This document shows, in pieces, positions 4,226 through 59,364 of a stretch of DNA of 64,000 nt. The stretch covers positions 622,001 through 686,000 of the forward strand of contig JAJEKV010000034.1 in assembly GCA_021234155.1 (NCBI GenBank), in the 5' to 3' direction. How positions within the stretch are numbered: position 1 is the first letter of the stretch; the number at the start of each line of letters is the position of its first letter. Position numbers and translations under genes: made by a program. The notes under the pieces are model-generated. The model searched no databases and was not told the origin of the DNA. It saw nothing but the letters and a program-made list of their open reading frames with translations. This DNA is from Isoetes taiwanensis. Its lineage: Eukaryota; Streptophyta; Lycopodiopsida; Isoetales; Isoetaceae.

Positions 4226-4392
4226 AGCTGCACTAGCAGAACTAGTTTCTCATCTCTCTGTTCCTATTGTCTCCAATGCTCGTAACGTTGATAATGACCC
4301 TTTAACAAGTAGTAACCAGCCTCCAACGCCTGTTCTTCCACCTGCTAATGTCCCTTCGACTAGCAATTATAAACCTAAGGCAAGGAGGCTTA

Positions 4393-32435: not shown

Positions 32436-33908
32436 ATGCTTACCTGAAATCCAAACCTTCTTCTGTGATTTGCCTAGCAACGATTTCAACCACTTGATCC
32501 ATCAATGGAATTCTAGCTATAGAGGTAATATAACATCATTTTTTTCCGCAGTACCAGGATCAGTCTACGGAAGACTATTTCCTAAATCCACACTCAATCT
32601 AGTTTTCTCATCATTTTGTATCCATTGGCTCTTTCAAGTAAGTAATTTGATCTTTACTCATGCATTATGTTTCACTATTTCTCTTTTTTCTCTCTAAAGA
32701 CTCAAGTTTGCATCGATTTAGGTTCCCCCGACAGTTTTTGATCCAAAATCTCCTGCTTATAATAAGGGAAGATTTTGGTTACTTGACCAGGGATCAAACG
32801 AGCTCCTGGCCTAGCATATGCTCAACAATGGAAGCAAGATTTGGTTTTATTTTTTAGATGTAGAAGTGATGAAATGGTTCCTGGTGCTATGATGTTGTTA
32901 ATTTGGCTAGCTCGTCCAGAAGGTAACCCTCCTCACTGTCAGCTGGATGAGAATACTAGCCTCATAAATCTCCGAACTGCATGGCAGCAATTGATCCATG
33001 AGGTAACCTGATGTTTTCTCTTTGTTTCTTTCTTTCGTATATGTATATATTAATGATGAAGATTTGATGACCCAAATGTATATTATCTTGCAGGGGACAA
33101 TAGATGAACATACTATAGATACTTTTAATCTTCCTCTTTATTTTTTTAATATCCAAGAGATTAGAGCTGTGATAGATCAATGCCCAGAGTTGAAGATTCA
33201 AAGCTTAGAATATGCAAACGAGAATATGGGGGACAATTATTGGCACCAAAATAGTCTTGATCCAATGCTATTTGCACATAAGCAACAAGAATTCTGTCGA
33301 AGTTTATTCGGTAATGCTATAGAGGAGCATGTTGGAAAACAAAATTGTAAATCCATTTTTGAAAGGTTTGGAGAGCTAGTGAAGAAGGCATTAGAGAGTC
33401 AAACACATTGGAATGCTAAATGGGCAATGCCAATGGAGACCATTATCATGGTGGTTTCTAAGAAATCGATTTGAATCTTTTGCCCTTCAAATTAGATGTA
33501 TCTATAGAAATTATATCTATGGTTCAAAATAAACATCATCTGGATCTATTATAGCTTCACATGATTCCTTTTTACCTAATTTCTAACCCTATTAAATGGT
33601 TGTGATTTTGTTCATTTTCTCTAACTAGGAGAGGAATTCTAGAAAATTCTAGAGACTAGCTATTTCTTTATTTATACTCTACATTCTAGACAACTCCTCA
33701 TTAGCCACTCATGGTCCTCCCCTATCAATGTCTATGCCTATTCTTCCTTCATGTTCAACTCTCTCTCTCTAGCAGGGGAGGATCTTTAAAAAACATTGTT
33801 CTGGGTCAAGCGTCAAGATGGTACAATGAGTTACGACATCGAGGCGACAAAGAAGGCTATCACGCCAGATTTTCGAAGGCAGAGGATTTAAAAAACAAGG
33901 AGTCTTAA

Positions 33909-35013: not shown

Positions 35014-35034
35014 GAATTCGACACCACCAGGGTT

Positions 35035-36694
35035 ATGTGTTGGAATATAAACAGTTTAAATGCGACCAAAGTAAATATGATGGGAGATATGCTGGAACAA
35101 GCAGATTTAATCTTTTTTTTAGAGACGTGTGAGAATGAAGAGCGCGGTGCTGTAGATATTGCAGGTTTTGATCTGATACATTCTGTGTGGAATTATAAAC
35201 ACTGGAGATTGAAGGGTCATGGTGGCATTGCATGTTATGTGAGGCAGAAAATGAAGCATTTGGTAAGGCTAGTACAGGGACATGGATCTAAACAGCATAT
35301 ATGGGTTGAGATATCTGGGCATAAAGGAAGGATCTTTATAGCAGGATGCTATTTTCCTCCACGTGAATCCCCAGTTTATAATGGTGGAGTGCTAGACAGG
35401 GATGATCCCTTTTTTGATTTGGAGCAAGACGTTCTTAAATTATTGTCTCAGGGGGAAACACTCCTTATGGGAGACTTTAATGGGCGTATTGGGAGTAGGC
35501 AGGCAGCAATTGCAAGTACAGACGGAGAACCTATATGGATGGAAATGATCGATGCAAATGAGCTAATGCAAAGTGGGTGGAATAGAGTTTCTGCAGATGG
35601 AATAAGGTGGCCTACTCCTCAAGGTAATCATCTCCTCAGCATGTGTACAGGATTAGACATGGTAATATATAATGGTGTTCATAAGTACCCAAATACAGGG
35701 AAGCTCACATGTAGAGGATCCAGTGTGGTTGATCTAGTAATAGCAAGACCACAGTTTATGGAGCAGATTGTAAATTTTGTGATTGGGGATGAGAGACCTG
35801 AATCGGATCATGTGCCCATTTTCATCTCTTTACGAGTTAGCAAATATGAGATTGTTAAGAAAGTTGCTAATGATGGCCCAAAAAAAATTGTCATGCGCTT
35901 TCATAAGGCTGATAAATATGAATCCCTATGTGAAGTGGAAGCAGCGAGAATAGATTGGCCTAATAAGGCGGAGGACATTAGTGCATTGCTTAGTACTATG
36001 GTACTGGATGCTGCTAAGAAATGCTACGTATCCCATAGAAAGTTGAAAGGCCTGCCATGTAATAGCTGGTTTGATGAGGAATGTAAGATGAAAAGACAGG
36101 AATTTAAAACAGCAAAGGGGGATGAAAAGAAGTTGATTAAGAGAGAGTATATGAAGATGGTGAAATCAAAGAAGAAGAAATTTCTATATGAAAGGCACTT
36201 GCAAATGATGGGTGAGCTGCTTAAGGAGCCCAAGAGATTCTGGAATCGAATCAAACCGAAATTAAAACACTCGGCGGTGTTAGGGAAGGAAGAATTACTA
36301 GATTATATATCTAGATTGTATCACATCCCAGGCATAGAGGACAATGTGTCAGTGCAATATATAACTGATAGGGGATGGGAGTTCACGTTGGAGGATGTAG
36401 AAGAAGGTTTGCAAGCATTAGCAAATGGGAAAGCTGCAGATACATTAGGATTAGTAGCAGAGATGTTTAAATGGGCAGGCCCGAAAACTCATGAGATTCT
36501 TTGGAAATTAATGAATGCAGTCTTGAGAGAGGGCTTTCCGCACAGTTGGCAAGTGAACAGAGTTATTCCCTTGCACAAACTAGGGGATGAAAAAGATCCA
36601 AACAATTACAGAATGATAATGATTAGCAATTTGTATGCCAAACTATATGCCACCATGGTAAACAGGAAGATTAGTGGATGGGCTGAAGAGAACA
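35035..36694 (+). pseudogene. LINE-B ORF2, endonuclease plus first RT motifs
   Basis: ATG at 35,035 starts MCWNINSLNATKVNMMGDML. APE endonuclease motifs are intact: LETCENE, GCYFPPRESPVY, LLMGDFNGRIG, PESDHVPIFISL. Then a Lys-rich linker and the start of RT: NRVIPLHKLGDEKDPNNYR, YAKLYATMVNRKISGWAEEN. The coding run leaves the LINE at 36,694 where the DNA element begins; the open frame goes 56 bases further inside the insertion and stops. The rest of ORF2 is at 49,063. Confidence 0.95.
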
Positions 36695-36734
36695 AAGCAC
36701 TGTTTCATTATTTATGGACTTTCCGAAAGTCCAT
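36695..36734 (+). repeat. Left TIR with an adjoining perfect hairpin
   Basis: TIR at 36,695-36,719. Overlapping its inner end, ATGGACTTTC (36,714-36,723), one C, then GAAAGTCCAT (36,725-36,734) make a perfect 10-bp stem. The right end lacks the hairpin but has AAAGTCCAC nearby (about 49,016-49,024). Confidence 0.85.
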
Positions 36735-37039
36735 ACGTCTCCGAAATTGAGTCAAATTTCTAAAATATGATGGTTTTTTAAATAGAAGGACGGAATTTTT
36801 CGGGAAACGTGCTGGTAGGTGATATGGCAGAAGCTTTTTCTATTAAGCCAAGGACAAGCCCGCCCAACTCGCGGTCAAGGAAAAGCGCGTCCTGTGTGTG
36901 AGGTGTTGCTAGTGAGGCTTTGTTTTGCAAATCATGCGATAGATTCATAACGGCGGTGAGAATGGTTGAAACGAGGCCGGTATGGATTCACAATGACCGA
37001 AATGCAGTCCCATATCGCTGAGCGATCTTAGCCCACGCG

Positions 37040-37563
37040 AATCAATTGCGTGTTGAGGTGCGAAATGAGATAAATCGAAATGGAAGAAACGAAATCGGTG
37101 GGCGTGTCATGAAGCTCCTCCGTGGGGATGGGTTGTTAAAGGACAACAATTATCAACTCACTAGGGTGGAGTTGGAAGCTTCCCCGATATCATTGAAACG
37201 ACTTGTCTGGCTGGGGAGAGGCCTCAAGAGGCTACTCAAATTAGAGGATGTTTGGTGCACAACTCATTCGCACCATTATTTAAGAAGCTTTATAAAAAGG
37301 AGAAAAGGCAAATGGAAGATTTGGTAACCAAGCTCATTGTCAACACTCCTCACTCGATCCTTGAATTGGATGAATGGCTGGACCTGTATAGCAGAAATTA
37401 CATTGATGAGTTCGATCAGGGTGATCTTATTCAAGTCGAACTAGCCATTGACCTAAAACCGCACCACGATATTTTCTACTTTGTATTACGTTTTTGTCGA
37501 ACTACCTATGTCGAGGCATGTTGTTTTATTTGGTTTTATAATATGTGTATGACATCTATGTAA
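37040..37563 (+). pseudogene. Unrecognised plus-strand frame(s) near the left TIR
   Basis: Two overlapping frames read on from one another if a shift near 37,300 is allowed. The first has RVMKLLRGDGLLKDNNYQLT, the second EDLVTKLIVNTPHSILELDE and YIDEFDQGDLIQVELAIDLK. The composition looks protein-like (acidic/hydrophobic alternation), but I know no family. It may be a decayed first gene of the element. Confidence 0.35.
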
Positions 37564-37569
37564 TGCATT

Positions 37570-38945
37570 TCTTAATGAATGGAACCGGTTCTATCTATTT
37601 TTATGATGGAGCATAGGCCACAATCCCTAGACACCAATTTGTTTTGTGGAAATTGGGCCCCAATTTGCCCTCATAGTCGTTTGAACAAAGTTTAATACTA
37701 GCCTCCAAAGGAAATAGGGCGTCCCAATTTCGTTAGACTTGCGAAAAATACAAATACGATCGTCACAAATATAATTAATCCAACTTGAAAACTATGCGAC
37801 CAAGTGTGGATGCTACCTATAACATCATTTCAGGATATAAATTCTTATGAACTTATGAAATACATCTCATAGATTGTAATTATTGGTGATTTTGTCAATC
37901 TCATAAGCGTCGCTCCCTAACCCAAACAATATGGATAGTAACATGGTACTTTCCGCCGGGAGTCTTTCTACGACCAAGAGCTATACCATGCGGCCCGTGT
38001 ATCAAGGGTGATCCCTTTGATAATGCATGCATGAAGGTCGCCGAAAAAGTCATGAGGCAAGTGAGGGTGTCCAAATGCTCGGAGGTGGAGGCAATTGGGA
38101 CCTCTCAAGAACTCTAGCAGGGCGGCGAGACATTGCAAAGGGCTCACGCTATGCAATCGAATGCGGCAATACTTATAGCCAAGTAATTATTGATGAAGCC
38201 TTTGAGTAACATTATTGGGCGCATATATCACGGTAAGTATATCCAATAATTATTGTGTATAATACCAACAATAATTTTGGTTGGTATAAATATATATCAA
38301 ACCAATGTTGGCCAACAAATTTGGCCTTAGTCTAACCATGTGGTCTCCTGTTGGTCCCGAAAGATTCCATTACGTGCAAGATGAATCACGAAAACTTCAA
38401 AGCAAAGTTGCCTTGAGCGAGAAATAGCCATGGAAGATTGGATGACCACTTGTGAGTCTCAATCCTCGCCATTATCCCGATCCCTTGATGTTATCATCCA
38501 TCCGGGATATGGAATAGAGAGCATCAAATGTACATGATAGAAAAGATCTCCTCGGGTGGTCTGGCGAAAATGACTCGGAAGAGTCCCCCTAGATCAGATT
38601 GTTGTAATGTGATAGTCATGTTGTTGTAATCGGATTGTCGTAATACTCTTTGCTTTTGTAATTTGTAAGGCGCCCACTTGACTTCATGTTCAACCGCCGC
38701 GACCGATAGCCTTAAGGTTCAAATTGGGCTCCCCAATTTCTATGAGGGAACTCTTCTAGTGCGGGGAAATTTTTGACATGTATTTATTTTCTTGGTCAAT
38801 GTACATAAGTTTTTTCACTCATTTTCATTATAAAACCTATATAGTGAGTAGCGGTGGTGCGAAATTGGGCCCGCACCAATTTGCACCCGTCTCACTCTAA
38901 ACATATACCGCAGTGTCGGAGATCAAATTGGGCGCCCAATTTGCA
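37570..38945. other. Spacer of the element with isolated palindromes
   Basis: No clear gene. A 60-codon frame at 38,027-38,209 (EGRRKSHEASEGVQMLGGGG) is of doubtful status. Isolated AAATTGGGC / CCCAATTT palindromes sit at about 37,643, 37,712, 38,716, 38,860 and 38,925 in otherwise unrelated sequence. Confidence 0.5.
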
Positions 38946-38951
38946 CCCCCT

Positions 38952-39620
38952 CTAGCAAAACATACTCCTTGTGCTCAAGGGTCCACCCTTCACCGACGTT
39001 GTTGTGTGGCGCAGCTTTCTTCTCCCCACGCCTGTGCAGCTTAAGGAGTTCCATCGGCGTGGAATTCTTCGATTGGTTAGCATAGCGTCGAGGGGAGCAT
39101 CCTTCTCAATTTCCATTTCAACATCATCCTCCTTCTCATTTTCCTCGTCCTCCTTCTCAACTTCCTCGTCCTCCTCAACTTCCTCGTCCTCCTTCTCAAC
39201 TTCCTTCTCCTTTTCGACATCCTTTTCTTGCTCTGATGGTAGCGGGTCCACAGCTTGAGCTTCTTGTGTCTCCAAGACAACAGAAGGTTCTCCATCCTTG
39301 AGGAGTAGGCTGCGTAAACTTGAGCTACCCTCGATCACATCTTGGGTGCACACTAATGTAGTGCCCGCCAAAGCATTAATGTTATCCTTCTTCTTTCTAA
39401 AGAAAGACATGTCCTTTGCTCCAAAACCTGCAACCTTTCTCAAATGGTCTGTGAGAGAATCTTTAGACAACCGGAGAGTGGATTGCAACTCTTGCACCGT
39501 TTGTGCGGGGAATGGACAAGGAGGTGGAGGAGTGGACACTCTGAAGACTTGCCTTGGAGCCGCTTGCTTTCTTTTTACCCTCGCTATTTTTGCAATGCAC
39601 GGGTCTCGATTTCTTCTCAT
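38952..39620 (-). CDS. Unrecognised protein with a long Glu/Lys/Asp tract
   Basis: 222 codons open on the minus strand. N-terminal basic part (KIARVKRKQAAPRQVFRV), a helical part (ELQSTLRLSKDSLTDHLRKV), then about 50 residues of Glu/Lys/Asp repeats (VEKEKEVEKEDEEVEEDEEV), then a basic end. No enzyme motif. Open length and fairly even composition support a real coding segment, probably the last part of the minus-strand gene that starts near 43.0 kb. Role unknown; acidic tracts are common in chromatin-binding proteins. Confidence 0.45.
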   Translation of the reverse strand: MRRNRDPCIAKIARVKRKQAAPRQVFRVSTPPPPCPFPAQTVQELQSTLRLSKDSLTDHLRKVAGFGAKDMSFFRKKKDNINALAGTTLVCTQDVIEGSSSLRSLLLKDGEPSVVLETQEAQAVDPLPSEQEKDVEKEKEVEKEDEEVEEDEEVEKEDEENEKEDDVEMEIEKDAPLDAMLTNRRIPRRWNSLSCTGVGRRKLRHTTTSVKGGPLSTRSMFC

Positions 39621-39947
39621 CCAAAGATTACTTCGAGTTGATCAAAAATCGAGTAAGTTTAAGCTGCATATTCTCATCACTCTCAAAGGCGGTGGCTTTA
39701 TACCCTTTCCATTATAGGCTTCCGCGGCTAAAGGATCCTCCAGAGAAGAAATCAAGGACACTGCATCCCTCAAGCATAAATTTCCGGACAAGGTATGTGC
39801 ATGTCCTAGAATCTAATTGATGTGGCAAAAGGGCACCCGCGCCTCCTGCCACACTCTTGTCACCCCAAGGCCGATACAACCAGTATGCTGAAGCAAAGTA
39901 CAACCGTTATAAGTGGCATTGAAAAGAAATAGACGCAGACCCTGGGT

Positions 39948-41035
39948 TTAAATCATGTTACCTGCTGCGCACTCATGATCGGGGAGGTTCTTCTCTATGT
40001 CCTCCACTTCTTTCAAGTGCTGCGGGAACTTCGAATACTCTTGAGGATGGTCCGCATCGTTGAAGCATAGATTCAGGTCATTCATTGCAGGGGCAGCTGC
40101 TTGGTCTCTGGCCACATACATTACAAGAACGAGAGTCTGCAGCTCGCGAACACGAGAGGAAGGGTTTCTCTTTTTAGGATCATTGTACGCTCCCACCCAT
40201 ACGCCGACTACCCCCGCCTATAGTCTTCATGGCGGACAAGCATTCACTCAAACAATCTGGGTGATAAAGATCGTGATCCAATATAATTGCTGGTCCGTAA
40301 GCACACCGATCTGGTCCAAGAACTTCGGTAATTCTCCATGCTCCATTTCTTGATATTTCAAATCACATCCAACAAACCGAGCAGAGGTATTGACCACATC
40401 AACTCGACACTCCCAGAGGACCGACCACGGTAGCATTTGAATGATTTTGATCCCTCTTCCACCGGTCCACGCAGGATACTCATTAACCTTCGTGATAAAA
40501 GCCTTTGAAGGTTAAGCTTTTACGCCTTCTTTTTTGCTATCAACCCAATCACCTACACTGTTGGCGAACATCAACATCAAATTCTCCGTGAATATAGGAT
40601 GAATTTTCCTCAAATCGGTCATGTTGTCAACACGAAGCTTTTTCACATCTTTGAGATATTTAAGGAGTGCACGCCGGCAAAGTGCCAATCTTCTTCGGCT
40701 TCCTGCATCGGATTTTCATGACACGCCTTCCAAAGATAGTTTTGGTGGTCTTTATGTGCGTGGTGGTGGCGTCATAATCTCTCGGCAAAAGTCTTTGCGG
40801 ATCCATTGGATGCATGGACTTTAAAGGTCGGCACTTGTTATTCGTGAACATTCTCAGCGGTCCTTTACCACTATCGTCTCACCCAATTCATCTTTTTAGC
40901 TGGTCTTCATAGAATAACTGAGCCACTTGTAGGCACATATTCCAAGTTTCACATCCGTGATACACGGCATCGAGTAGTCTCGCATGCTAAGCTTCTTCAA
41001 TGTGCCTTCGCTTATAGCGAGCCAATCCTCAAGAC
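39948..41035 (-). pseudogene. Middle part of the minus-strand element gene, broken
   Basis: Successive open pieces on the minus strand appear to be one degraded protein: AISEGTLKKLSMRDYSMPC (near 41,000), DVKKLRVDNMTDLRKIHPIF and SVGDWVDSKKEGVKA (40,660-40,500), VNEYPAWTGGRGIKIIQMLP to DQIGVLTDQQLYWITIFI (40,480-40,248), LQTLVLVMYVARDQAAAPAM (40,196-39,948). Stops and shifts interrupt it. I do not recognise it. Order and strand match the neighbours on both sides, hence one gene by inference. Confidence 0.4.
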
Positions 41036-41099
41036 AAACATAGTAAACTTAGCACATTTGACATATCTGATCTCAAAATTTAGCAATGCACAAGCTAAC

Positions 41100-41620
41100 A
41101 TGCAATGCACATGAGGGCCAGCATAAATTGAAATTGGCCCCAATTTCATAGACAAGGAGATGCAATTTAACATGCTATATTCACATGGGGCCAACCCAAA
41201 TTGGGCTACCAATTTAAAGTGACAAGGAGATGCAATTTGACATGCTATATTCACATGGGGCCAACCCAAATTGGGCCGCCCAATTTCATAGACAAGGAGA
41301 TGCAATTTGACATGCTATATTCACATGGGGCCAACCCAAATTGGTAAATTTCATAGCCAAGGAGATGCAATTTAACATGCTATATTCACATGGGGCCAAC
41401 CCAAATTGGGCCCAATTTCATACCCAAGCGGATGCAATTTAACATGCTATATTCACATGGGGGTAACCCAAATTGGTGCCACGCCAATTTCATACCCAAG
41501 CGGATGCAATTTAACATGTGTCATGTAGTATCCTCAGCATCTGAATTGGGCTACCAATTTCATAGCCAAGACGCCAGAAGAAACATGGGAGGCCTCCCAA
41601 ATTGGGCTTCAATTTGATGG
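41100..41620 (+). repeat. Tandem array 1, unit about 66-72 bp
   Basis: The unit runs GATGCAATTTAACATGCTAT, ATTCACATGGGGCCAACCC, AAATTGGGC...CCAATTTCATA, GACAAGGA. Six or seven copies. The palindrome half-sites vary in spacing (AAATTGGGCCCAATTT; AAATTGGGCCGCCCAATTT). Confidence 0.9.
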
Positions 41621-41659
41621 CCAAGGGATTTATGAAAAAAAAAAGCATCGCATCCACAA

Positions 41660-42373
41660 TTAGAAATGACTTACTTCAATATGCGCTATCTTGGGATAGT
41701 CCACGCTTTCCTTTCTTGACTTTCCATAGAATGCCCATTGATTCCTAAGCTGCTGTATTTGTTCGAAGTAGACATCCTGATGGATAGTATTCTTGGTGAT
41801 ATCGTTGCTCTCCTGGCTGACCTTCACATATTCAGTAGGAGTGAGGTTCCCTGCCAGCACACGACATTTTCTTTTGGCGTAGAAGAAAAAGATAAGATCT
41901 TTCAGATGAGCCCTTTCTGGCAGCCATTCCAACGCTGGTTGACAAGAATTTGGGCAACCTGCGGTAGTGTGATTGCCATTTACAATCCGTAATTCTGCAT
42001 TGTCCAAATCGGTGGCCTTCTTCCACTTGATTACACGCCCAATGGATCGATCAAAGGGTACAACATCCGCACAAGGTGGATGCATCTGCACATTAATAAA
42101 TGATTCATAGAGTGTATCAACATGTTCTGGACTGATGACCCTGCAGGTCATATTTGCAGGTGCTTGATGCATTTTGAAGATATCCACCTCTATTTCGAAT
42201 TCAACACCAAGAGGATAGATCCTTTCCCTGTGCTTAATGTTGATCAATGCAGTTTGGGACAGCTCACGTTTGCTTTCTTGAGTCAACGCCCCGCCAGATG
42301 TCGAGCACTTCACAATTTGCCCGTCGTCTTCACAGTGAGCACATGTCGGGTCCCACTCCCCCATCGGATGCAC
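41660..42373 (-). CDS. Element protein with a possible ParB/sulfiredoxin-like domain
   Basis: 237 codons open on the minus strand. Features: CAHCEDDGQIVKCSTSG (a small Cys/His cluster), RERIYPLGVEFEIEVDIFKM, CRVISPEHVDTLYESFINVQ, MHPPCADVVPFDR, then AELRIVNGNHTTAG. A segment that sets arguments for protecting or replacing target positions (VISPEHVDTLYESF) followed by a GNH-x-x-AG loop is how ParB-N-like nucleotidase/DNA-binding folds read (usual loop GxHR). The assignment rests on these two segments only. It overlaps the next minus-strand frame (42,310-42,651), so a splice or shift joins them. Confidence 0.4.
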   Translation of the reverse strand: MHPMGEWDPTCAHCEDDGQIVKCSTSGGALTQESKRELSQTALINIKHRERIYPLGVEFEIEVDIFKMHQAPANMTCRVISPEHVDTLYESFINVQMHPPCADVVPFDRSIGRVIKWKKATDLDNAELRIVNGNHTTAGCPNSCQPALEWLPERAHLKDLIFFFYAKRKCRVLAGNLTPTEYVKVSQESNDITKNTIHQDVYFEQIQQLRNQWAFYGKSRKESVDYPKIAHIEVSHF

Positions 42374-42999
42374 GATGTTGATGGTGGAGTAGGGTCTCTT
42401 CTTTTCTTAGACGAGGAAGCTATTGCCTCGTGCCGACTTCGCTTTGTTCCTTGCTTTTCTGGTGGGGACTGCTCAGATACCTCCTGCGATCTAATGCTAA
42501 CGTCCGGGCTACGTGATGTTCTTCCCATACCACCAAGAATCAGTTTTGGAGTTGATGTTTTACGATCTTTTCTTCTTAGGAACCTTTTCTCGATGACCGC
42601 GGCTGCGGGTTTCTCGTCCCCTTCATCCGTCACCCTTCTTAGGAACTCCATAACGTGATCTCAACCACGCCGTGTCATAGACCTTTGGTTGGCTCTTCCC
42701 ATGATACTGCGTGTAAAGGGCCTTTGATCGATTTTGTTTGTGATCGGTATGCAGCGCCTAAGCGTATTAAATCCATCTATAATATCTCCCGTTTGGTGAG
42801 TCGGATCTCTCAAGGCTTTTCGTAAGAAGACGGGACCCAGACCCTTGGCGACCGAATGTGAAGCCTCGGTGATGCTTGCATGCATTAGGCGAGGATTGTA
42901 AGTCCCAAAGGGTAACCTGTATCCTTGAAATGACTTATCAAGCACGTCCTCTACGACAACCTCTAACTTCGTTGGCAAACTTCGATTACTCCTGAACAT
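42310..42999 (-). CDS. Upstream part of the minus-strand element gene
   Basis: Two open pieces. 42,999-42,661: FRSNRSLPTKLEVVVEDVLD, GYRLPFGTYNPRLMHASITE, DPTHQTGDIIDGFNTLRRCI. 42,651-42,310: MEFLRRVTDEGDEKPAAAVI and a basic Ser/Lys-rich, nuclear-signal-like stretch (KRSRHEAIASSSKKRRD). They lie directly before the ParB-like segment in the same direction. No known family. Confidence 0.4.
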
Positions 43000-43374
43000 G
43001 TCGATTGCTATACACGCGTTCTCGTGTCCTCCGAGTCCCGGCTTTCGACAAAGTACGTACCGCAGATCCTTGAGGTGATTCAGTGCTAGACCCGGGGGGA
43101 TATTGCCTACCTCTATGCACCAAGTAAATTTATCCCTTTCACGCTAGCCATTAGTTCCTGGACGACTTCAATACCATTGAATTGAATTCCGCCTCGCTTC
43201 CTTTGTTGCGGCAAATGCACGTACAACGCCAGCGGAGGGCCGATCACGGTGCACGTGCGGTTTGTTTAGTTCTTGCCATGGGTGCTTGCATAACATCATT
43301 CATGAAACCCATTAGTGGTGTGTCAAAGAATTAAAAGAGCAATTTGCGAGCAGAGGAGATTACAAGACTAACCA

Positions 43375-43880
43375 AAGATTGTAGAGGTCCCAAATTGGGC
43401 CCAATTTGGTGAAAGGCAGGAGATTACAAGAAGAGAAGCTCGAGGGTCCCAAATTGGGCTCACCAATTTGCCGTGAGCGCAGGAGGTTACAAGAAGAGAG
43501 AGGCCAGAGGGTCCCAAATTGGGCTCACCAATTTGCCGAGAGCAGGAGGTTACAAGAAGAGAGAGGCCGAGGGTCCCAAATTGGGCCCAATTTGGCAGAG
43601 AAAGGAGATTACAAGAAGAGAGAAGCCCTGAGGGTCCAAAATTGGGCCAAGCCTCCACCTGCCGTGAGCAGGCAGGAGGTTACAAGAAGAGAGAGGCTTG
43701 AGGGTCCCAAATTGGGCTCCTACCAATTTGCAGAGCAGGAGATTACAAGAAGAGAGAAGCCCGAGGGTCCAAAATTGGGCCTTCCAATCTGCCGTGAGCA
43801 GAGGAGGTTACAAGAAGAGAGAGGCCGAGGGTCCCAAATTGGGCGCCAGCCAATTTACAAAGACATGAGGTCACCTAGAA
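43375..43880 (+). repeat. Tandem array 2, unit about 60-67 bp
   Basis: The unit is GAGGGTCCCAAATTGGGC, a variable 0-9-nt spacer, CCAATTTGCC, GAGCAGGAGRTTACAAGAAG and AGAGAGGC. Eight copies. The repeat frame stays open in places but encodes only low-complexity sequence. Confidence 0.9.
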
Positions 43881-43884
43881 GAGA

Positions 43885-46025
43885 GACCTCCAAATGACTT
43901 CTACTTAAAGCAAGAGCGGATAAATGGGCTACCCAATTTGCCCCAGCTTTGGGAGGTTAGAAAGCAATAAGAAGGTTTAGAGCTTTGATAGATTTAGGGC
44001 TCGCCATTTGCTTGATCCAAGGGACTTATGAAGCCAAGAGGGAGACAAATTGGGCTTCCGCGTGGTAATTAGAATGATCCAATCCGCCAAAGGGTTATTG
44101 GGTGCGGGAGGAGACAACTTCGAGCTACAAGGTGACAACCAAGCAGAGAGGGTGCGCGCCATATCATTGGGTGGACTCCTTAAGGCCGGGTGGCTTATCT
44201 CCTCGCACTAATGTAAAGAACTCAAGTTGAAGAAAAGAGCAAGACCTTTTCCTCCCTTCACGGCCCACTTTCCATGAAAGCAAGTGGCACTGAAGCTAGC
44301 AAATCCGGCGCTTGGAAGAAATCACTTTGAACACTACAGCGCTGGTAGCTCGGTTAGCGCACCAAGAAATCAATTTGAAAACGATAAAGGCTGGATGCTT
44401 GGAGTAAAAGCGCTTGGAAGAAATCGGTGTGAACACGATAGGCGCTGGATGCTCGCGGTCGGTACGCTCAAGAAATCGATATGAACAAAGCTCAAAGAAT
44501 GCGAAATCTAAAAAGGAATGGGCGGTTAGGTTTAACCGCGATGAGTGACAAGTGGCGGCCATGCAAAAAAAGACCCTAAAAATAGACGTTTTTTAAGTAA
44601 ATATGGACCAAAGGACGAACAACAATAAAATATAGACGACTTTGCAATAAATGTGCCCGAAAAATAAATCGCTTTTTAAATTGACATACACGTATTGAAA
44701 TTTAAATTTTAAATTTTGAATTCTCACGATGCCCCCAATTTCAAATTTATAGTGCGGTCCGCTTTGGTACATTTTCAATTTCAAATTAGGGCCCCACCAA
44801 TATTTGATTTTTTGCGTCCACTTTGCATTTGAATTTGAATTTGAATATATATTGAACTATGGTGGGAGAATTGATTTTTGAAATACTCTCGAGGAAGCGG
44901 GCGGCTAAGCCATTCGTTCTCTCACATTCTTGGGCAAAGAACTTCTTCAAATGGATGGCGTCACGATTCATCAAAGGTAGGTTTCTTTTCGGTATATAAT
45001 TCATTCTTTGCCCGGATTGGTATAGAACATTATTGATGATAAGATTCGACGGATAAAAAGATAATTATGAGAGATGTATGTTCTGGTCCCTCTATATTCT
45101 ATCTCGGGTAGCATGGAAGCAGGGGGCCAAATGGGTGCCAAATGGGCTGATAGACCTCCGAATATGTATCATTCCCGGGTGCCCGCCTTTAGAAAGAGTG
45201 GCTATGTTTCATTTATGTATAGCACCTCAAAATTACTAGACCCGGGGAGCCAATTTTAGCAGACTAAAAGCATCAGCGAATGGGAGGAAATTGGGCGGTG
45301 TTCAATTTCAACTCCTCAAAGTTACTAGACCAGGGGGAGCAAATTGGGCTAACCAAATTTCAGCAAGAAACATAAGAACATCAGGAGGAAATTGGGCGCT
45401 GCCCAATTTCAACTCCTCAAAGTTACTATATTGTGGAGCAAATTAAGGCCACCCAGCAGTAAGAACGCCAGAATAGGAAATAGGGCGGGAGCCCAATTTT
45501 AACTCCTCAAAGTTACTATACTGTGGAGCAAATTGGGCCACCAATTTCAGCAGCTAAGAAACATCAAGAATCAGGTGGAAATTGGGCGCCCTAATTTCAA
45601 CTTCTCAAAGTTACTAGATCAGGAGCAAATTACGGCCACCAATTTGACCAAATTTTAAGAAACATCAAGAATCAGTGGAGGAAATTGGGCTGCCCCATTT
45701 TCAACTCCCTCGGGTTACTAGACCAGAGCAAATTGGGCCGCCCAATTTGAGCAGCTAAGAAACATCAAGAATCAGGAGGAAATAGGGCGGGTGCCCAATT
45801 TCACCTTTCCAATTTATTTAACAATAGGAGAAAATTGGGCCGCCCAATTTCACCATCTAAGGAGCATGTCTTTGTAACTTTGCTCTTGAACCCGATTCAT
45901 TTTTTTTGGTGCGGGAGGTGTACCTATTCAAAGATGGTCGGGCGGTTGGCAAAGGGACCATGGGAGCTAGGAGAGATGCCACTTTAAAGACATCCCGATG
46001 GACTTGTGAGTGTGGGTGTTCTAGC
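43885..46025. other. Spacer between arrays 2 and 3 and the plus-strand gene
   Basis: Apart from array 3 (45,270-45,870), no gene is recognised. A triplicated phrase GCGCTTGGAAGAAATC / AAGAAATCGAT occurs at about 44,310-44,480 with ACACGATARRCGCTGGATGC. AT-rich at 44,600-44,860. Isolated half-palindromes at 43,925 and 44,050. Confidence 0.5.
45270..45870 (+). repeat. Tandem array 3, unit about 95 bp with two palindromes
   Basis: The unit is GGAGGAAATTGGGC...CCAATTTCAACTCC, TCAAAGTTACTAGACCAG, then GAGCAAATTGGGC...CCAATTTCAGCA and GCTAAGAAACATCAAGAATC. About six copies. Each unit carries the palindrome twice with different flanks. Confidence 0.9.
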
Positions 46026-46030
46026 TGTGT

Positions 46031-46543
46031 TTGAGGGGCATCATGTTCTCTCTTGGCCTACTCGAAGCAAGTACCTTAGGTGAGGCATTGGGTTCCTTCA
46101 TTCTCGGAGGGAAAGTGATGTTCATGACTCCGATGTCGTGGGCGTCTTGTCGGCATCAAAAAGACAGCGAGGGGAAGCAGACAGACACCATGTCGCTAAC
46201 TAGGTACACACTACATCGAGACCCGATGCGAAATTTATCACTCATGTGCTTTGCCATCCCCGCAAATGAAGGGATTTATATCCTTCCACGGTCCGCATCG
46301 ATGCGATATGTGACCAGGTTCTTGGGTATGAAGACCGTGGGGTGTCTGTTTGAAGGCTTTCCCCCTCCGACGAGAGTGAACTTCCGTGTCCCAAGATGTT
46401 TGACAATACCTAAAGCGGGCATGCTTTTGAGGTGGAATAATGATCTAGTTAGGGTTTGTGGGGTGAAGGTGTCGGAAATTTTAAGTGCAAATGCCGATTG
46501 GAACAAAGATGATACTGACGTCGAGCCAGGGCAGCTTCTCTGA
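46031..46543 (+). CDS. Unrecognised 170-codon element frame
   Basis: Continuous plus-strand frame in front of the DUF7869-like gene, starting ATG at 46,042 or the alternative at 46,031. Contains LCFAIPANEGIYILPRSASM, MKTVGCLFEGFPPPTRVNF, KAGMLLRWNNDLVRVCGVKV. Same direction as the next gene. It may be a separate protein or the N-terminal region of that gene before a frameshift. Confidence 0.4.
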   Translation: MRGIMFSLGLLEASTLGEALGSFILGGKVMFMTPMSWASCRHQKDSEGKQTDTMSLTRYTLHRDPMRNLSLMCFAIPANEGIYILPRSASMRYVTRFLGMKTVGCLFEGFPPPTRVNFRVPRCLTIPKAGMLLRWNNDLVRVCGVKVSEILSANADWNKDDTDVEPGQLL

Positions 46544-46549
46544 GATTCG

Positions 46550-48990
46550 AAGCATCCGCAGATGACGAGAAGCGTAAATACACCTTCCATTCTCGTCGGC
46601 CAAAGAAAGCATCAAAGCCTCCAAAGATAGATCGGCTAACAACCAATGAAGCCATCTTGAGGTATAGGAAGACCATGTGTTGCAAAACAGAGATGTTGTG
46701 AGAAATTCAAAGGGGATCAAGCTATAAACATGCAAAAGGATTTCTTTTGCCATGAAATCGAAAGTGACGTGACCACTTTTGTGTATGACATGTTAGGCAA
46801 CAATATGAAGGGTAGAAGGGTTCATCGACTAGTCTTGCAAGGCATCGCTTAATCCGTGAGAGGGCTTGGTACCTTGGTCTTGGGATTTCAAAGTCGGGGT
46901 ATCCGGGGTGGAAGGCGAATTCGCCCGGTGCTCGAAAAGGCCGAGCATGGCAATTCGTGCACTATGAAAGCACGCGGCCACCTTGGCCTCGAGGTCGCTG
47001 TTTTTCCATGTTTGTGAAGGAAAATTGTGAGTCTTTACCTCACCGTGAAAGGTGAGGAATGATGATGGGATTCGAGAAAACGTGAGGAAGTTGCCTGCTA
47101 TGTTTACGAAGACATGCATTCTCGAAGAGGTCAACGCTGAAGTGATGGCTCTCACAGGCAAGAAGGTATCTCCGACAGGATTTCATAGCACGTGGAGACG
47201 TAGCTTCAAGGACGTCGGTATTGCTAAGAAGAATGCGTTCTCCAAGTGTGACACTTGCGCAGGTTATCCGCATGGTGAGCCAAGACCAAGGATGAGGCCG
47301 AGAGGAGAATATTGCATGATCGAGAAGGGCACATAGACTAGAGCAGCAATCATGTCACACCCAAGATCTTGGGTCATGGAGATCAAGTATCCCACGGGCA
47401 TCCTCGAGACTTTGTATGTATCATTCACGACAAAATGGATCGAGGCAAAGACTATGATTCCAAAGTTGTTCGATTCCGTGGAAGTCCCTTTGGAGACTAG
47501 ATAAGCTAAAAGACTTCATTGACAGTGCACTTACCCACGGCCATGGGAGAGGGTGCTATGGAAATTTTGCTTTGGATCTGTGGTCGGGGCGACTCCAACT
47601 TCCATGTAGGTTCTTTGAATAGTATTTTGAAAAGGTTGGAGCTGCCTAATGAGTTTGCGGGGAGGCCATCTTGCACCTTGTCCGATCCATCAGTCCCGTG
47701 TTGGGCGAGGGCCTTACGTGACACCAACTGCGCTAAGCGTCAAGTTGTCGCTGTCCGGGAAGAGCATCCCGTTGCCATCCCTCAACCCGAGGGACCTCAT
47801 TGAAGCGTCTCCCTCGAAATTCTTTGTTGCAACTAGACAATGCATCCGGACAAAACAAAAATAGGTATGTATTCTCGTATCTTTCATACCTTGTATATCC
47901 GGGTGTTTTCGAGGAGATTGAGTTAGGGTTTATGATGCCTGGCCATACACATGGCGATATAGATGCTATGTTTGGAAATTTTCATCTACCTTGAAGAAAG
48001 CGAAGTGCTAACCATGCCCGAAGTTGTTGTATGAATTTCATCGTGCAATCTCAACACGCCCGATGCCATATGTTGTTCATAAGGTTCCAGATTGGAAAGG
48101 TTTCATAGAAGGGTATATCCCCGATGGGGAAGATAGATTGACAGTCACACCGAGCCTCGACCTTTTTGTTTGCTATGAATGGTGGCCTTTGTCATGTACC
48201 ATAAGGCTCGGCCCTACGTTCGTGGATTGGCTACCCGCGGTGGAATAAGAATGTGGAAAGAAGGAGAGGATGGAAAACCCTAATGCCATCCGAAATCAAG
48301 ATGCTAGCACCTAAGAGCTCGGTGAAAGACATTGGTCAGCTCAAAAGCGGATCCATAAGCATATCCTCCATTGGGTCGCATGCTCGACGAACAAGAAGGG
48401 CACACCGAGAGACGGCCAAATATACTGACACAATTCTACGGCGACAATTGAATATTGGATGGGACTCTTGGAGCATCGAAATTAACATCACCAACGTGGA
48501 AGGTCCTTACGAGGACTTTTGGCCGCGCACTAGGCAAGATAGACTTGACGTACCTGATGTGGTGGAGCCAATTGCAACCATCACTCCTGCTTATGTTGGT
48601 CCATTGAAGGATAAGCCCGTACCAGAATTCAATCCTTTCAAGGATTTGAAGAAGGGCATGTTTGTATTGGCGCGCCCTGATGATGTCTTGTGCCCAACAT
48701 GGCTAGGGTATGCTACAGAAAAACCCCAAATGGATGATAAGAAAGACAACTTCGAGACTATCCAGGTCACTTGGTGGGAGCCTGTCCCTGTTAGGAACCA
48801 GGTGTTCCCAGCCAACTATGTCAATTGTTGGAAGAAGAGATGGAGGCCGACCACTGCTAGTGACCGCATTGAGATAGAGAGTATCGACTACGCTTGGAGT
48901 CCTTCGAATAAGAAGAAGCTACCAAACACTGTCAAGATTCCCACACTTGTTGCAGAAGCATATGCGGCACTTGCCGGGGATGTATGTTAG
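46550..48990 (+). pseudogene. DUF7869-like (RNase H-like) putative transposase, frameshifted
   Basis: Pieces follow in the order known for DUF7869 proteins. About 46,670-46,850: CCKTEM, FFCHEIESDVTTFVYDML. 47,052-47,336: LEEVNAEVMALTGKKVSPTG, FHSTWRRSFKDVGIAKKNAF, SKCDTCAGY. 47,510-47,700: HGHGRG...NFALDLW, then DSNFHVGSLNSILKRLELPN. 47,815-47,990: LLQLDNASGQNKNRYVFSYL, MMPGHTHGDIDAMFGNFHL (candidate acidic and His residues). 48,024-48,240: PYVVHKVPDWKGFIEGYIPD. 48,253-48,990: C-terminal module MFVLARPDDVLCPTWLGYA, VTWWEPVPVRNQVF, NCWKKRW, possibly chromo/SH3-like. At least four frame changes. The gene ends about 50 bp before the right TIR, as expected for an element's own transposase. Homology recognised by motif order only. 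Confidence 0.7.
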
Positions 48991-49037
48991 TGTTATCGAA
49001 GCGTCTCTTTTATAAAAAGTCCACAATTCAAGGTATT

Positions 49038-49062
49038 GTCCATATTTAATGAAACTGTGCTT
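49038..49062 (-). repeat. Right TIR of the 12.4-kb element
   Basis: GTCCATATTTAATGAAACTG plus TGCTT; the reverse complement matches the left terminus except at three positions. It lies about 50 bp past the stop of the DUF7869-like gene. Confidence 0.85.
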
Positions 49063-50740
49063 AACAATGCTAGGGCAGTGGGGCAAGCAGGTTTCAGGCC
49101 TAAAAGATCAACGACAGATCATTTGATCACTTTGCGTGCTCTGATAGACTCAGTCATAGGAACTAGAAAACCATTATATGCACTTTTTGTGGATTTTACA
49201 AAAGCATTTGACACTGTACATAGGGGGAATCTTTGGGAGCGGATGGAGATGCTTGGGATACCTGAGGAATTGAGAAATGCTGTCAAGATGCTATATGAAA
49301 AGGTATTGGTAAAGCTTTCATTTCCTTACTATGGTGTAGGTTCAGAAGAGGTGAGCAGTAATATGGGGGTCAAACAGGGCTGCCCTATGTCCCCTACTTT
49401 GTTTGGACTGTTTATAGACCAGCTTGAAGATTGGGTGAAACAACTTGGAGGAGATGGTATGGTCATGGGAGGCTATGTGTTGCACATGTTGTTGTACGCA
49501 GATGATATAGTTATTTTATCCAGGTCAGTGGCAGGTATGCAGAAGCATTTAGATGCTTTGTCTCTCTTCTGTGACAATAAGGGCATGAAGGTGAATTTGA
49601 CTAAAACTAAATTGATTGTTTTTGGGGCACTTAAAGTTGGACATCTTAAATTTTTATATAAAGGAGAACAGGTTGATATTGTAGACTCATATAAATATTT
49701 GGGGATTCAAGTGGATAAAACTCCAAGTTGGAATCAGGCTGTAGATCAGAGGGTAAGTGGTGGGTTGAAGGCTTTATATAGTATGCAACGCAGAAGTGCA
49801 AATGCTGATATTTGGAATTTTGAACTAAAGAAAATGCTATATAAAGTGCTTGTACAAACTGTTGTACTATATGGCTGCGAGATGTGGGCACCTGGGCTAG
49901 CAGAAGAAACCTGGAAAAAAGTTGAAAAGGTTCAGAAGAAATTTTTCAGAACAGAATTAGGGGTTAAGGCACAAACTCCATACGATATGATGTTGGCAGA
50001 TTGTGGCATGATGCCTCTAGAGGCCCGAGGCACCGCGCAGAACACTTGAATATGTTTGCAAGGTACAAATGGATATGCACGAAGAGAGCTTGCCTAGAAT
50101 TGCCATGGATGCAACGAGGTCCAAGGGATGGTACTCTGATGTTCAAGCTTGGATGAAAAAATGGGGATTGGAATGTAATGATTTACATATCCAACGTGGT
50201 GATATTAGGGGCACAGGTACGGGAACACGCGTGATTATGAGATCGTGGCGTGTCCCGTATGAAAAAACATATTATAAACAGTGCATTAATCCTTCCCTTC
50301 AGCAGCCAGGATATTTGAGTGAAGGGATATCAGTGAAGTATAGGCATGCAATTAGTAGACTAAGGCTCAGCTCACACAGATTAGGAGTGGAAGTGGGTAG
50401 ATGGAGCAACATACCTCATGAGCTTAGGATGTGTAGGCTATGCGGTATGGGAGAAATTGAGGATGAGGCACATGTTCTTTTGCGCTGCCCACAGTATGCA
50501 GGTCTACGTCTTATATACCAAATTAACTGTAATGATTTGGTTGCATTTTTTGGTCTCTCGGGAAACATCACAGGTCATTTTATAATTGAAACGATGGAAC
50601 ACAGGAACAATGTGCTAAAGGTTATTGATGGTAATGAGAATGAGGGAGATGAGGGGGAGAGCTCTGATGCATTTCTTTCTGAAGATGCATTAGAGGATAT
50701 TTTTTATAATGTGGAATGCATGGATTTGAACGTCTCATAG
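49063..50740 (+). pseudogene. LINE-B ORF2, remaining RT domain and C-terminus
   Basis: NARAVGQAGFRPKRSTTDHL, LYALFVDFTKAFDTVHRGN (motif A), MGVKQGCPMSPTLFGLFID (motif B), HMLLYADDIVILSRS (catalytic YADD), then the thumb region to PLEAR at about 50,030. Two frame changes between 50,030 and 50,070 (HLNMFARYK in one frame, then QMDMHEESLPRIAMD in another) break the protein. After that it is open to 50,740 with MCRLCGMGEIEDEAHVLLRC, the C-terminal Cys/His motif shared with LINE-A. So LINE-B is inactive even apart from the insertion. Confidence 0.95.
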
Positions 50741-52734: not shown

Positions 52735-55700
52735 ACCCCAGGAGACGGACATCACAAAGGTTACCGAGACAGGCTTTCCTACCAGTTCTCCTCTGGGAGG
52801 GCAAATGCCAATGCCTCCCTTCCCGGAACCCGGTTTCCCTATCCGACCGTTGAATTCTCCATTCGAGTAACTTGCTTCGAAAGGGCTCAAAAATTCAAGA
52901 TCCGTCCGGGAGAACATATCAAATCGCAAGTGTCCTGCGCAATGAATCGTGTAGAAACCCAAGTGTTTTGTCGTTCGGGCAAGCATGCAAAGGCTCCTGA
53001 ATGGAGATTTGACTTCGCCATGTCGTCCAAAAACAGCAGTGAAATTACCCTAGGGACCAAGTTACGCCGGGTCATTTTTGCGACAAAGAAACACGAACCC
53101 TCTACATGGCAAGATATTATGCACCCTCCGCTAAGGCCAATTCACTACTGAACGTGTTGGACATGACCTACTTTGGCGCTTCCGGGAGCAAGGGTGGTCT
53201 TCACCCAAAAACTTGGTCTCCGTGGATAATGTCGATGTTTCGAAATCATTGGCGAAGTCGATCACACGCCCGGTGGGAGAGTTGCCCGTCCGTGGCCAAG
53301 GACCCTCCGTGAGGACCTTTGGGACGAACTTCTTCCTAAGGTTTTAGGGCTCAGATCCTTCGTCAACGCCTCCCACTACCTCATGACATTGTGCAAGATC
53401 CCGGTCCAATCGGCTGGGGTATGGCCTCCAAAACGTAAACCCCGGTTATTGCGTTTACGCTATGGAGGTTATTGTAGGGTTTACATGGTTATGGAGGTCA
53501 AAGTTTTATCTTGCCTCCCTTCCCGAACTTGAGACATGGTCGAGAAGCTCAAGAAAATTCAAGATTGAAAAACAAGAAGTGTCAATAGAAAGCCCAAGTG
53601 TTTTGTGGGGTTTGGATTTATCGCATGGTCCTGTGCTTTCCCTACCAATTACAATCCTCCCGGAGGGCAAATGCCAATTTTGCCCCCCTTCACTAAACCC
53701 ATGAGCTTTTGGCCTATCCGACCGGTCTGAATTCTCCATTCAAGTAACTTTGCCTTCGGGAAAGGTGGGCTCAAGAAAATTCAAGATCCCGTCCAATCCG
53801 CTATAGGGTATGGCCTCCAAAAGAGAAACATATCCCTTTTCCCAGTGCAGTGTCCCTTCCTGAATCCGGGGGTATTCAAGAAGCCCAAGAAAATGTTTTG
53901 TCGTAGTCGGCAGAAACCGCGTTCGGTACAAAGGCTCCTGAATGGAGATTTGACTTCGCCATGTTGTCCTCAAACAACGAAATTACCCTAGGGACCAAGT
54001 TACACCTGTCATTTTTTGCAAAGAAAAGAAACACGAACCCTCTACATGGCAAAGATTTTGCACCCTCCGCTAAAGCCAATTCACTACGAACGTGTTGGAC
54101 ATGAGCTACTTTGGCGCTTCCGGGAGCAGGGGTGGTCTTCTGCCCACAAAACTTGGTCTCCAGGGTAATGTCGATGTTTCGAGTCCGTTGGCAGAGTCAA
54201 ATCACAGTTCCGGGGTGGGAGAGTTGCCCGTCGTGGCCAAGGACCCTCCAGAGAGGACCTTTGGGACGAATTTCTTTTGAAGGTTTTAGGGCTCCTCCTT
54301 CAACGCCTCTACCTCATGACATTGTGCAAGATCCTCGTTAAGCCAATGCCCTCCCAAACTAAACCCCGGTCATGGTTATTGTAGGGTTTACGATCCTGGT
54401 CCAATTCAGACATGCACTTGAGACATGGTCGATGGCCTCCAAAAGAAGCAATAGAAACCGACGAAAATGGGGTTTGGATTTATTGAGGCAGTGCTTTCCT
54501 ACCGGTGCTCCTCCCGGAGGGCAAATGCCAATGCCTCCCTTCCGAACCCGTTTCCCTATCCGAATCGCTTGAATTCTCCATTCAAGTAACTTTATTCGAG
54601 CAGGCTCAAGAAAATTCAAGATCTGTCCGGGAGAACATATCCCTCCGCAAAGTGTCCTGCAAGTCGACCGTGTAGAAACCGAAGTGTTTTGTCGTTCGGG
54701 CAGTACAAAGGCTCGAATGGAGATTTGACTTCGCCATGTCGTCCAAAACAACTAAATTACCCTAGGGACCAAGTTACACGGGTCATTTTTGCAGCAAAAG
54801 AAACACGAACCCTCTACATGGCAAGATTTTGCACCCTCCGCTAAGGCCAATTCACTACTTAACGTGTTGGACATGAGCTACTTTGGCGCCGGAGCAAGGG
54901 TGGTCTTCGCCCACAAAAACTTGGTCTCCGGGGTAATGTCGATGTTTCGAGTCCGTCCGCGAGAGTCAAATCACAATTCCGGGGGCTGGAAGAGTTGCCC
55001 TTCGCGGTGGCCAAAACGACCCTCCGAGAGGACCTTTGGGACGCACTTTTTTCTTGAAGGTTTTAGGGCTCCGCCTTACGGCAAATTCAATGCCCTCCCA
55101 CTACCTCATGACATTGTGCAAGATCCTGGTCCCAAGATCCGCTGGGGAACATATCCTCCAAAACACAAACCCCAAGTGTTTTGTCGTTGCTAGGTTATTG
55201 TAGGGTTTACGTTATGGAGGTCGAAGTTTTATGGCACTCCCTAACATGGTCGGACCTCCGCTAATTGAAAACAAGCACATGAGCTACTTTGGCGAAAATG
55301 GGGTTTGGATTTATCGAGGCATGCTTTCCTACAAATCACGTGCTCCTCCGGGAGGGCAAATGCCAATGCCTCCCTTCCGGAACCCGGTTTTATCCGAAGG
55401 TTTTGCTTCGAGCAGGCGGTTCCCTATCCGAAACCATTGAATTCTCCATTCAAGTAACTTTATTCGAAAGAAGCTCAAGAAAATTCAAGATCTGTCCGGA
55501 GAACATATCCCTCCGCAAAGTGTCCTGTAGTCGAATCGTAGAAACCGGTGTTTTGTCGTTCGGGCAAGATACAAAGGCTCCTAATGGAGATTTGACTTCG
55601 CCATGTCGTCCCGTAAACAAATAAATTACCCTAGGCACCAAGTTACGCGGTCATTTTTGCAGCAAAAAGAAACACGAACCCTCTATATGGCAAGATTTTG

Positions 55701-58700: not shown

Positions 58701-59165
58701 ACACGAACCCTCTACATGGCAGTATTATGCACCCTCCGCTAAGGCCAATTCACTACGAACGTGTTGGACATGAGCTACTTTGGCGCCCGGGAGCGGGGGG
58801 TGGTCTTCTGCCCAAAAACTTGGTCTCCGGTGGTAATGTCGATGTTTCGAGTCCGGCCGGGCGGTCGAATCACGCGATTCCGGGTGGAAGAGTTGCCCGT
58901 CCGCGGGCGTGGACCCTCCGTAGAGGACCTTTGGGACTAACTTCTTCGAAGGTTTTAGGGCTCCGTCTTACGCATCAACGCCCTCCCACTACCTCATGAC
59001 ATTGTGCAAGATCCTGGTCCAATCCGACTAGGGTATGGCCTCCAAAACGCAAACCCTGTGCCTTGCCAGGTTATTGTAGGGTTTACGTTATGGAGGTCGA
59101 GTTTTATTCAGTTGCACTTGAGACATGGTCGAGAAGCTGCAATTGAAAACAAGAAGCAATAGAAA
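52735..59165 (+). repeat. Tandem array of about eight units, 700-940 bp each
   Basis: The phrase GTGTTGGACATGAGCTACTT recurs at about 53,154, 54,092, 54,864, 55,733, 56,541, 57,243, 58,056 and 58,761, spaced 938, 772, 869, 808, 702, 813 and 705 bp. Each unit also carries GGAGGGCAAATGCCAATGCC, GAATTCTCCATTCAAGTAAC, GACTTCGCCATGTCGTCC, CTCTACATGGCA, CTCATGACATTGTGCAAGAT and usually TTATTGTAGGGTTTACG. Copies from 56 kb on are nearly identical; the first copies are more diverged. Length differences come from losing or keeping the block TTATTGTAGGGTTTACG...CTTGAGACATGG. Not recognised as coding, though long stretches stay open. Confidence 0.95.
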
Positions 59166-59364
59166 CTAACAAAATGGGGTTTGGATTCAATCTCCTCCTA
59201 GTTTTGCAATTAAAAGTCTAGAGCGCCGTATGCAGTGGCAAAATTGTTTGGGATCACTCGGGTTGGCCAATAGATCGAAACTCTGTTATTTCAGTTCTCA
59301 TGGCTCCCCATGCATGTTTAGAAATGGTCCACCACGTTATCAAAGAAGTCGACCATGTTTTGGC

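Follow-up and report, generated by a model that had tools for sequence, protein, structure and literature searches.

The Sola superfamily of DNA transposons, Sola1 included, reportedly goes back to Bao et al. 2009. In published descriptions, Sola elements are given 4-bp target-site duplications (TSDs), a DDD transposase, terminal inverted repeats (TIRs) of 11–1124 bp and lengths of mostly 2–9 kb, some exceeding 15 kb (PMC10741241), with Sola1 occurring in Physcomitrella (PMC9033089). The entry Sola1-1_Ec32 from the alga Ectocarpus (21.5 kb) carries a ParB-methyltransferase gene on the opposite strand, and the authors propose that transposon-borne ParB-methyltransferases may bind and modify their own transposon (PMC12477816). 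Here we describe a segment of 12,368 bp in a 64,000-nucleotide stretch of Isoetes taiwanensis DNA (assembly GCA_021234155.1, contig JAJEKV010000034.1, positions 622,001–686,000 of the forward strand; this whole stretch is termed the window, and its own numbering is used throughout). On balance, we favour reading this segment as a multi-copy cut-and-paste element of Sola type, probably Sola1, in which a DUF7869 protein would be the transposase and an accessory protein encoded on the opposite strand would read palindromes within the element and alter its silencing or control by the host.

As in the cited descriptions of Sola and Sola1, the element combines a 4-bp TSD (AACA in the window, with perfect 4-bp TSDs in nine of ten further copies), short TIRs (25 bp), a large size, a candidate DDD-type triad and relatives in moss. 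Palindrome arrays and a protein start resembling the histone H3 tail, both found here, go unmentioned in the parts of those descriptions consulted. An earlier note on this DNA had seen no classical plant superfamily that fits; as far as the cited portions describe it, Sola does so in TSD, TIR length, size and moss occurrence, and by these features the element is probably Sola-like, and probably Sola1. Two other superfamilies were set aside, Zisupton (KDZ), for which the cited part of PMC12730594 gives 8-bp TSDs against the 4 bp found here, and Ginger, whose TG...CA termini and TIRs of 40–270 bp (PMC10741241, in part) the element lacks. With Sola1-1_Ec32, as far as that entry is described, the element shares a transposase gene accompanied by an opposite-strand protein that we read as ParB-like and methyltransferase-like; it differs in being 12 kb long and from a land plant, in that its ParB part is recognized by eye and its catalytic motif was not found, and in that a candidate target site is present.

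VANDAL transposons belong to the MULE group. The targets of the anti-silencing protein VANC in Arabidopsis VANDALs are element-specific motifs in noncoding tandem repeats, located in introns or upstream regions and differing between relatives (PMC5735166, in part). The motif described below is likewise element-specific, lies in noncoding tandem repeats with a similar layout, and is replaced by another palindrome in a moss-like relative; unlike the VANC motifs described there, it is a 22-bp palindrome, and its proposed partner is methyltransferase-like. The VANC domains DUF1985 and DUF287 gave no Pfam match in the frames scanned. Fungal DNA transposons carrying TET/JBP genes also place the gene of a DNA-modifying enzyme beside that of the transposase, but in the portion consulted the enzyme is an oxidizing one, and the superfamilies and TSDs are others (PMC12730594).

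Element ends, target duplication and genomic copies

The segment at 36695–49062 is a DNA transposon inserted with target duplication, as judged from its TIRs, its TSD, the restored reading frame of the interrupted gene and the same ends in ten further copies. The left TIR AAGCACTGTTTCATTATTTATGGAC (36695–36719, plus strand) and the right TIR AAGCACAGTTTCATTAAATATGGAC (49038–49062, minus strand) agree at 22 of 25 positions, the value already reported in the earlier note. At up to three mismatches, the TIR consensus has only these two matches in the 64-kb window (shuffles expect none), and of the five inverted pairs of at least 22/25 placed 2–20 kb apart (8-base seeds), the other four fall in repeats. 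AACA flanks both ends (36691–36694 and 49063–49066). The earlier note had allowed AACA or AACAA; the shorter form stands, and the longer was rejected, as it would make the ends asymmetric and other copies have 4 bp. The insertion interrupts open reading frame 2 (ORF2) of a long interspersed nuclear element (LINE), with the endonuclease part on the left (35014–36694, plus strand; Pfam PF03372, E 1.9e-9) and the reverse transcriptase part on the right (49067–50049, plus strand; Pfam PF00078, E 1.6e-29). Without the segment and one AACA, ORF2 reads through 887 codons with no stop, and its alignment to a second LINE copy (29.9–32.0 kb; E 3e-151) crosses the joint ungapped. The restoration of the reverse transcriptase frame is as previously claimed; what was termed an exact excision footprint is really an insertion with target duplication.

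The left 261 bp (window 36690–36950) were searched against the species' own genome (1.658 Gb; 326 candidates, 40 scored) and matched at least 41 places, at least 40 of them, the window included, near full length and at 92–100% identity. Among the 39 near-full matches besides the window, 35 start at query base 5 or 6 (window 36694/36695), that is, at the predicted first base of the element or one base earlier. Both ends are present in all ten further copies retrieved (20 kb each; these ten and the window are the 11 copies referred to below), and the expectation of several copies sharing the same ends holds, with at least 40 near-full left ends in the genome in place of TIRs that occur only once. 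Nine of the ten have perfect 4-bp TSDs (TTAA, ATAT, ATAC, GTTT, AACC, TAAC, TTTG, CTTA and CTGA), and in C952 the duplicated TATG is accompanied by a single additional T on the right side.

The retrieved copies are 5.5 to 18.2 kb long and fall into two subfamilies: A, comprising the window and seven of the ten (C1072, C952, C1035, C1034, C1028, C1071 and C1067), and B, comprising C930, C1042 and C929. TIR identity is 22/25 in subfamily A and 20–21/25 in subfamily B. Subfamily B is 92% identical to the window over the left 1.9 kb and about 70–78% identical over the remaining alignable part, which suggests that its left end is recombinant or converted. The longest copy (C1071, 18.2 kb) contains two extra stretches of about 3.9 kb and 1.9 kb, which are probably nested insertions.

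The DUF7869 gene

As the earlier note had claimed, a DUF7869-type gene adjoins the right terminus. The broken gene occupies 46519–48987 on the plus strand (Pfam PF25273, E 1.8e-26 for the X-joined reading), and about 50 bp separate the end of its frame from the right TIR. Its unbroken core (47800–47988, plus strand), with LDN and GHTHxDID motifs, matches PF25273 with E 4.8e-22 and 78.9 bits against a cut-off of 26, which disposes of the case, raised in the same note, that the frames might have no DUF7869 profile match. Searching 5.8 billion proteins yielded 14 relatives, and a profile built from these gave 380 matches among 8,000 scored candidates; among the 120 relatives listed are named proteins of Physcomitrium patens and Ceratodon purpureus. 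Five aspartates (D421, D424, D546, D586 and D588) are conserved at 96–100% in 73–74 rows and are all retained in the window copy, whereas position 585, which is D or E in 97% of the rows, is G there. This set would fit a D, D, D triad of the RNase H type, and the DUF7869 protein is the candidate transposase.

Relatives were also sought elsewhere. Viral contigs scanned with pattern A2 gave 41 pattern stretches and no relative, a scan with the pattern GHTHxDVDA gave three stretches, none similar to DUF7869 proteins, and viral contigs scanned for the TIRs gave no match. Against PDB sequences the DUF7869 profile had two matches (E 0.028 and 0.84), which we judge to be chance.

The sequence divergence between subfamilies shows that the gene was under purifying selection. 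The ratio of nonsynonymous to synonymous divergence (dN/dS) between A and B is 0.22 and 0.08 in two of three comparisons, with dS saturated in the third; over both genes of the element, three of nine comparisons have measurable dS, and the other six are saturated, with dN of 0.11–0.34. In the window copy, the gene carries 12 frameshifts and three stops within 46591–48786. Sequencing error is an unlikely cause, because the adjacent LINE has 887 stop-free codons and private indels are not clearly more numerous in the window copy than in the seven others of subfamily A; private substitutions of the window copy in the left 1.6 kb number 36, the highest value, against 7–23 in the others. The DUF7869 gene has 15 lesions in 2.2 kb and the LINE one in about 4.4 kb (Fisher p 7e-7); the LINE values were taken by hand from its frames, and any short introns would count as lesions. 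From this difference we infer that the copy was probably already broken and moved in trans.

The accessory gene and its H3-like start

On the minus strand, frames of 248, 229 and 160 codons run from 43279 down to about 38955, in several broken segments or exons; a longest frame of at least 248 codons occurs in 2% of 300 random sequences of like composition. The earlier note had seen an opposite-strand, multi-part gene set on the left of the element. The opposite-strand coding stands, and the frames read best as one gene (38955–43279), termed here the accessory gene; its methyltransferase-like nature, its H3-tail start and the palindrome arrays had been missed. Between subfamilies, the pieces are 58–83% identical in protein despite saturated synonymous sites (of six comparisons, five have saturated dS and one a dN/dS of 0.11), which shows that this gene, too, was under purifying selection.

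The probable start of the gene (43253–43279, minus strand) reads MARTKQTAR, letters that we take to be identical to residues 1–8 of histone H3, the H3 tail. Among the ten copies that retain this region (it is lost in C1067), MARTKQ is kept in all ten, MARTKQT in nine and the whole MARTKQTAR in five (the window, C952 and all three B copies), the others then diverging by small changes. Across the nine codons, the window and C930 differ by five synonymous and no nonsynonymous changes. In subfamily B, a stop closes the frame six codons ahead of it and no other ATG intervenes, so MARTKQTAR is the start of the protein there. A captured H3 gene is unlikely, since the sequence downstream of the start is unlike H3 by eye.

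On visual inspection, IVNGNHTTA (in particular GNHTTA) gives a ParB-like look to the middle of the protein, a 248-codon frame (41663–42406, minus strand) with 71% identity to subfamily B. A ParB match was sought in Pfam, NCBIfam, PHROGs and PDB, and none was found. Matches of this frame to other families were all below threshold; phrog_21182 (E 0.0055) and DUF3634 (E 0.049) were set aside, as was bPH_9 (E 0.0019, below its cut-off) for a middle piece. Against PDB sequences the frame had one match at E 0.61 and a two-row profile had none; accessory pieces searched by tblastn against phages gave no match in one run and five records at E 3–9 in another.

The C-terminal part appears methyltransferase-like, by a motif I region on the opposite strand to the DUF7869 gene (EGCSVLDFFSGGS; 39640–39906, minus strand), and this assignment is weakly supported. 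Two families of phage DNA methyltransferases match it in the less broken copies: phrog_3008, at E 2e-4 in A and B alike, and phrog_498, at E 0.0015 (A) and 0.018 (B). M.RsrI, a beta-class enzyme, aligns at E 0.18 with motif I in register. The window's own piece reaches only E 0.02–0.35, the former with phrog_498.

Palindromic sites within the element

The half-sites AAATTGGGC and GCCCAATTT occur 37 times in the window, 35 times within the element, and all 19 inverted pairs of this 9-mer lie within it. The sites form three tandem arrays with unrelated units, together with single sites with unrelated flanks, and make up nine independent loci. Array 1 (41131–41518) lies between coding segments of the accessory gene, array 2 (43386–43856) just upstream of that gene, and array 3 (45285–45850) upstream of the DUF7869 gene; single sites lie at 37650–37666 and, within 38721–38942, at 38721, 38862 and 38925. 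None of the 35 9-mers falls in the 5,874 bp of the window element taken as coding.

The full site is the 22-bp palindrome AAATTGGGCGNNCGCCCAATTT, whose 8-bp spacing is found in 110 pairs of the other ten copies. At any spacing, the element parts of these copies (119,928 bp) hold 170 pairs, and their flanks (80,072 bp) hold none. The first 950 bp and the last 2,500 bp are free of 9-mers in every one of the 11 copies. Subfamily B has 7–8 pairs per copy, and four of the eight sites of C930 match subfamily A over the site itself and nothing more (23–30 bp), conservation of the site alone being limited to these four. We take AAATTGGGCGNNCGCCCAATTT as the candidate target of the accessory protein, which would bind it.

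Spacers range from 2 to 11 bp across pairs, and forms of AAATTGGGCGNNCGCCCAATTT with deleted centres recur in noncoding parts of the copies. In the window copy, none of the 19 pairs has the 8-bp spacing, all centres being 1–6 bp shorter. The 8-bp spacer is kept in from 1/3 to 21/26 of pairs in the seven other A copies, and in 20/23 in subfamily B. The centres look like deletion hot spots, with hairpin loss, centre cutting or age as candidate causes. A scan of IMG/VR for the palindrome gave nine stretches (L005–L013), each with one AAATTGGGC N0-5 GCCCAATTT.

A moss-like relative with a different palindrome

One relative found with its flanking DNA, a 4.3-kb contig (L001, positions 1–4327), encodes an unbroken DUF7869 protein of 944 codons that is 55% identical to P0008. 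The contig is filed within an assembly of a Synechococcales cyanobacterium, which it probably contaminates as moss DNA. Its palindrome differs, reading about TTTAGCTCGAsTCGAGCTAAA, and ten half-sites lie in the flanks of the gene and none in the coding sequence, against a mean of 0.3 and a maximum of 3 in 500 random flanks. The motif was picked from the same contig, and these counts describe a single relative and are no blind test.

Surrounding sequence

Elsewhere in the window, a fragment of a SABATH-type carboxyl methyltransferase gene lies at 33007–33474 on the plus strand (PF03492, E 2.6e-15) and points to a land plant as the host, and a tandem array of long related units, about 74–95% identical, occupies 52761–59187.

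Proposed mechanism and alternatives

In the mechanism that we favour, the DUF7869 transposase would cut at the AAGCAC...GTGCTT ends and join with a 4-bp stagger. The divergent second gene would give a protein that joins an H3-tail-like start to a ParB-like part and a methyltransferase-like part. This protein, probably a dimer, would read the 22-bp palindromes that lie in noncoding stretches of the element itself, and would then either mark that DNA or block or recruit host chromatin factors, with the silencing or control of the element changed as a result.

A bolder form of the proposal, which we put forward tentatively and hold with less confidence than the mechanism above, is that the element carries an epigenetic identity system of its own. 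The H3-tail mimic, the DNA reader and the methyltransferase-like part would act together on element-only arrays of the 22-bp palindrome, by methylation or, if the enzyme is inactive, as a decoy; the H3-like tail would recruit or titrate host readers or erasers of H3 lysine 4 (H3K4), and the host would thereby handle the transposon as active chromatin. Among related elements, a change in the protein would go with a change in the palindrome, a pattern that the moss-like element, with its different palindrome, suggests.

Several observations weigh against the favoured mechanism. The placement in Sola was made by features and not by alignment to a Sola transposase. None of the 11 copies has an intact DUF7869 gene, the aligned part carrying from 2 to 16 frameshifts and from 0 to 3 stops (for C1028, 296 profile positions were aligned in this count). 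In the accessory protein, Pfam and NCBIfam detect neither a ParB nor a methyltransferase domain, and the broken window reading, when compared with 5.8 billion proteins, had no relative at E 1e-3 in the 7,999 candidates scored. The catalytic motif IV, [DNS]PP[YFW], was not found within the accessory gene of the 11 copies, all broken to some degree, and its likely place reads NTSARF in five of them; since the motif appears in none, the protein may be an unusual or inactive methyltransferase. Upstream of MARTKQTAR, the window and some A copies have an open frame with other ATGs, which leaves the start there unfixed. Of the other four sites of C930, two match subfamily A at 81% across 59 bp, a third belongs to the shared left end and the fourth is unmatched. 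Lastly, no accessory gene is visible in the 4.3 kb of L001 despite its palindromes, which also fits binding by the transposase.

This last point belongs to the main rival explanation, which keeps the same transposon but has its palindromes bound by the DUF7869 transposase or a host factor, leaving the accessory protein with another task. The presence of palindromes on both sides of the DUF7869 gene in L001, with no accessory gene in 4.3 kb, speaks for it. End-binding transposases usually need sites near the element ends, but every copy lacks the 9-mers over its first 0.95 kb and its last 2.5 kb, and sites in the window lie within and beside the accessory gene; we consider this rival unlikely, while giving it more weight than any other. 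It is less probable still that the palindromes are functionless cores of slippage-prone minisatellites. The three arrays are indeed tandem repeats, and the spacers vary from 2 to 11 bp; such an origin, however, accounts poorly for single sites with unrelated flanks, for units that differ among the three arrays outside the core, for the half of the sites in a B copy that match A over the site only, and for an unrelated palindrome marking the relative L001.

The two further rivals concern the transposase and the class of the element. That DUF7869 is a captured passenger, the element being moved by another, unseen protein, might be argued from the gene being broken in every copy and from the family being a domain of unknown function that is not named in the literature searched. 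A frame that ends so close to the right TIR, purifying selection between the two subfamilies, and 380 relatives among the 8,000 scored, with Physcomitrium and Ceratodon among those named, make this very improbable. Least credible of all is a CACTA (EnSpm)-type element with true ends CACTG...CAGTG. The element resembles CACTA/EnSpm in its large size and in the CAC that starts three bases inside each end, but differs in TSD size, exact ends and transposase motifs. EnSpm has 3-bp TSDs at its CAC ends (PMC12730594, in part), whereas here TSDs of 4 bp lie outside AAG/CTT in nine of ten copies. Given the triad D421/D424, D546 and D586/D588, if correct, the 40 residues between the second and third acids (D546–D586) are without the C(2)C and H(3-4)H that the cited part of the same paper gives for CACTA and its kin.

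The proposal that transposon-borne ParB-methyltransferases bind their own transposon names no target in the part of PMC12477816 consulted, and a candidate target was found here. In addition, the H3-tail-like start of the accessory protein suggests a chromatin partner. If the favoured mechanism is true, the element would be a second, unrelated case of VANC-like action, in another transposon superfamily, and DUF7869 would gain a role.

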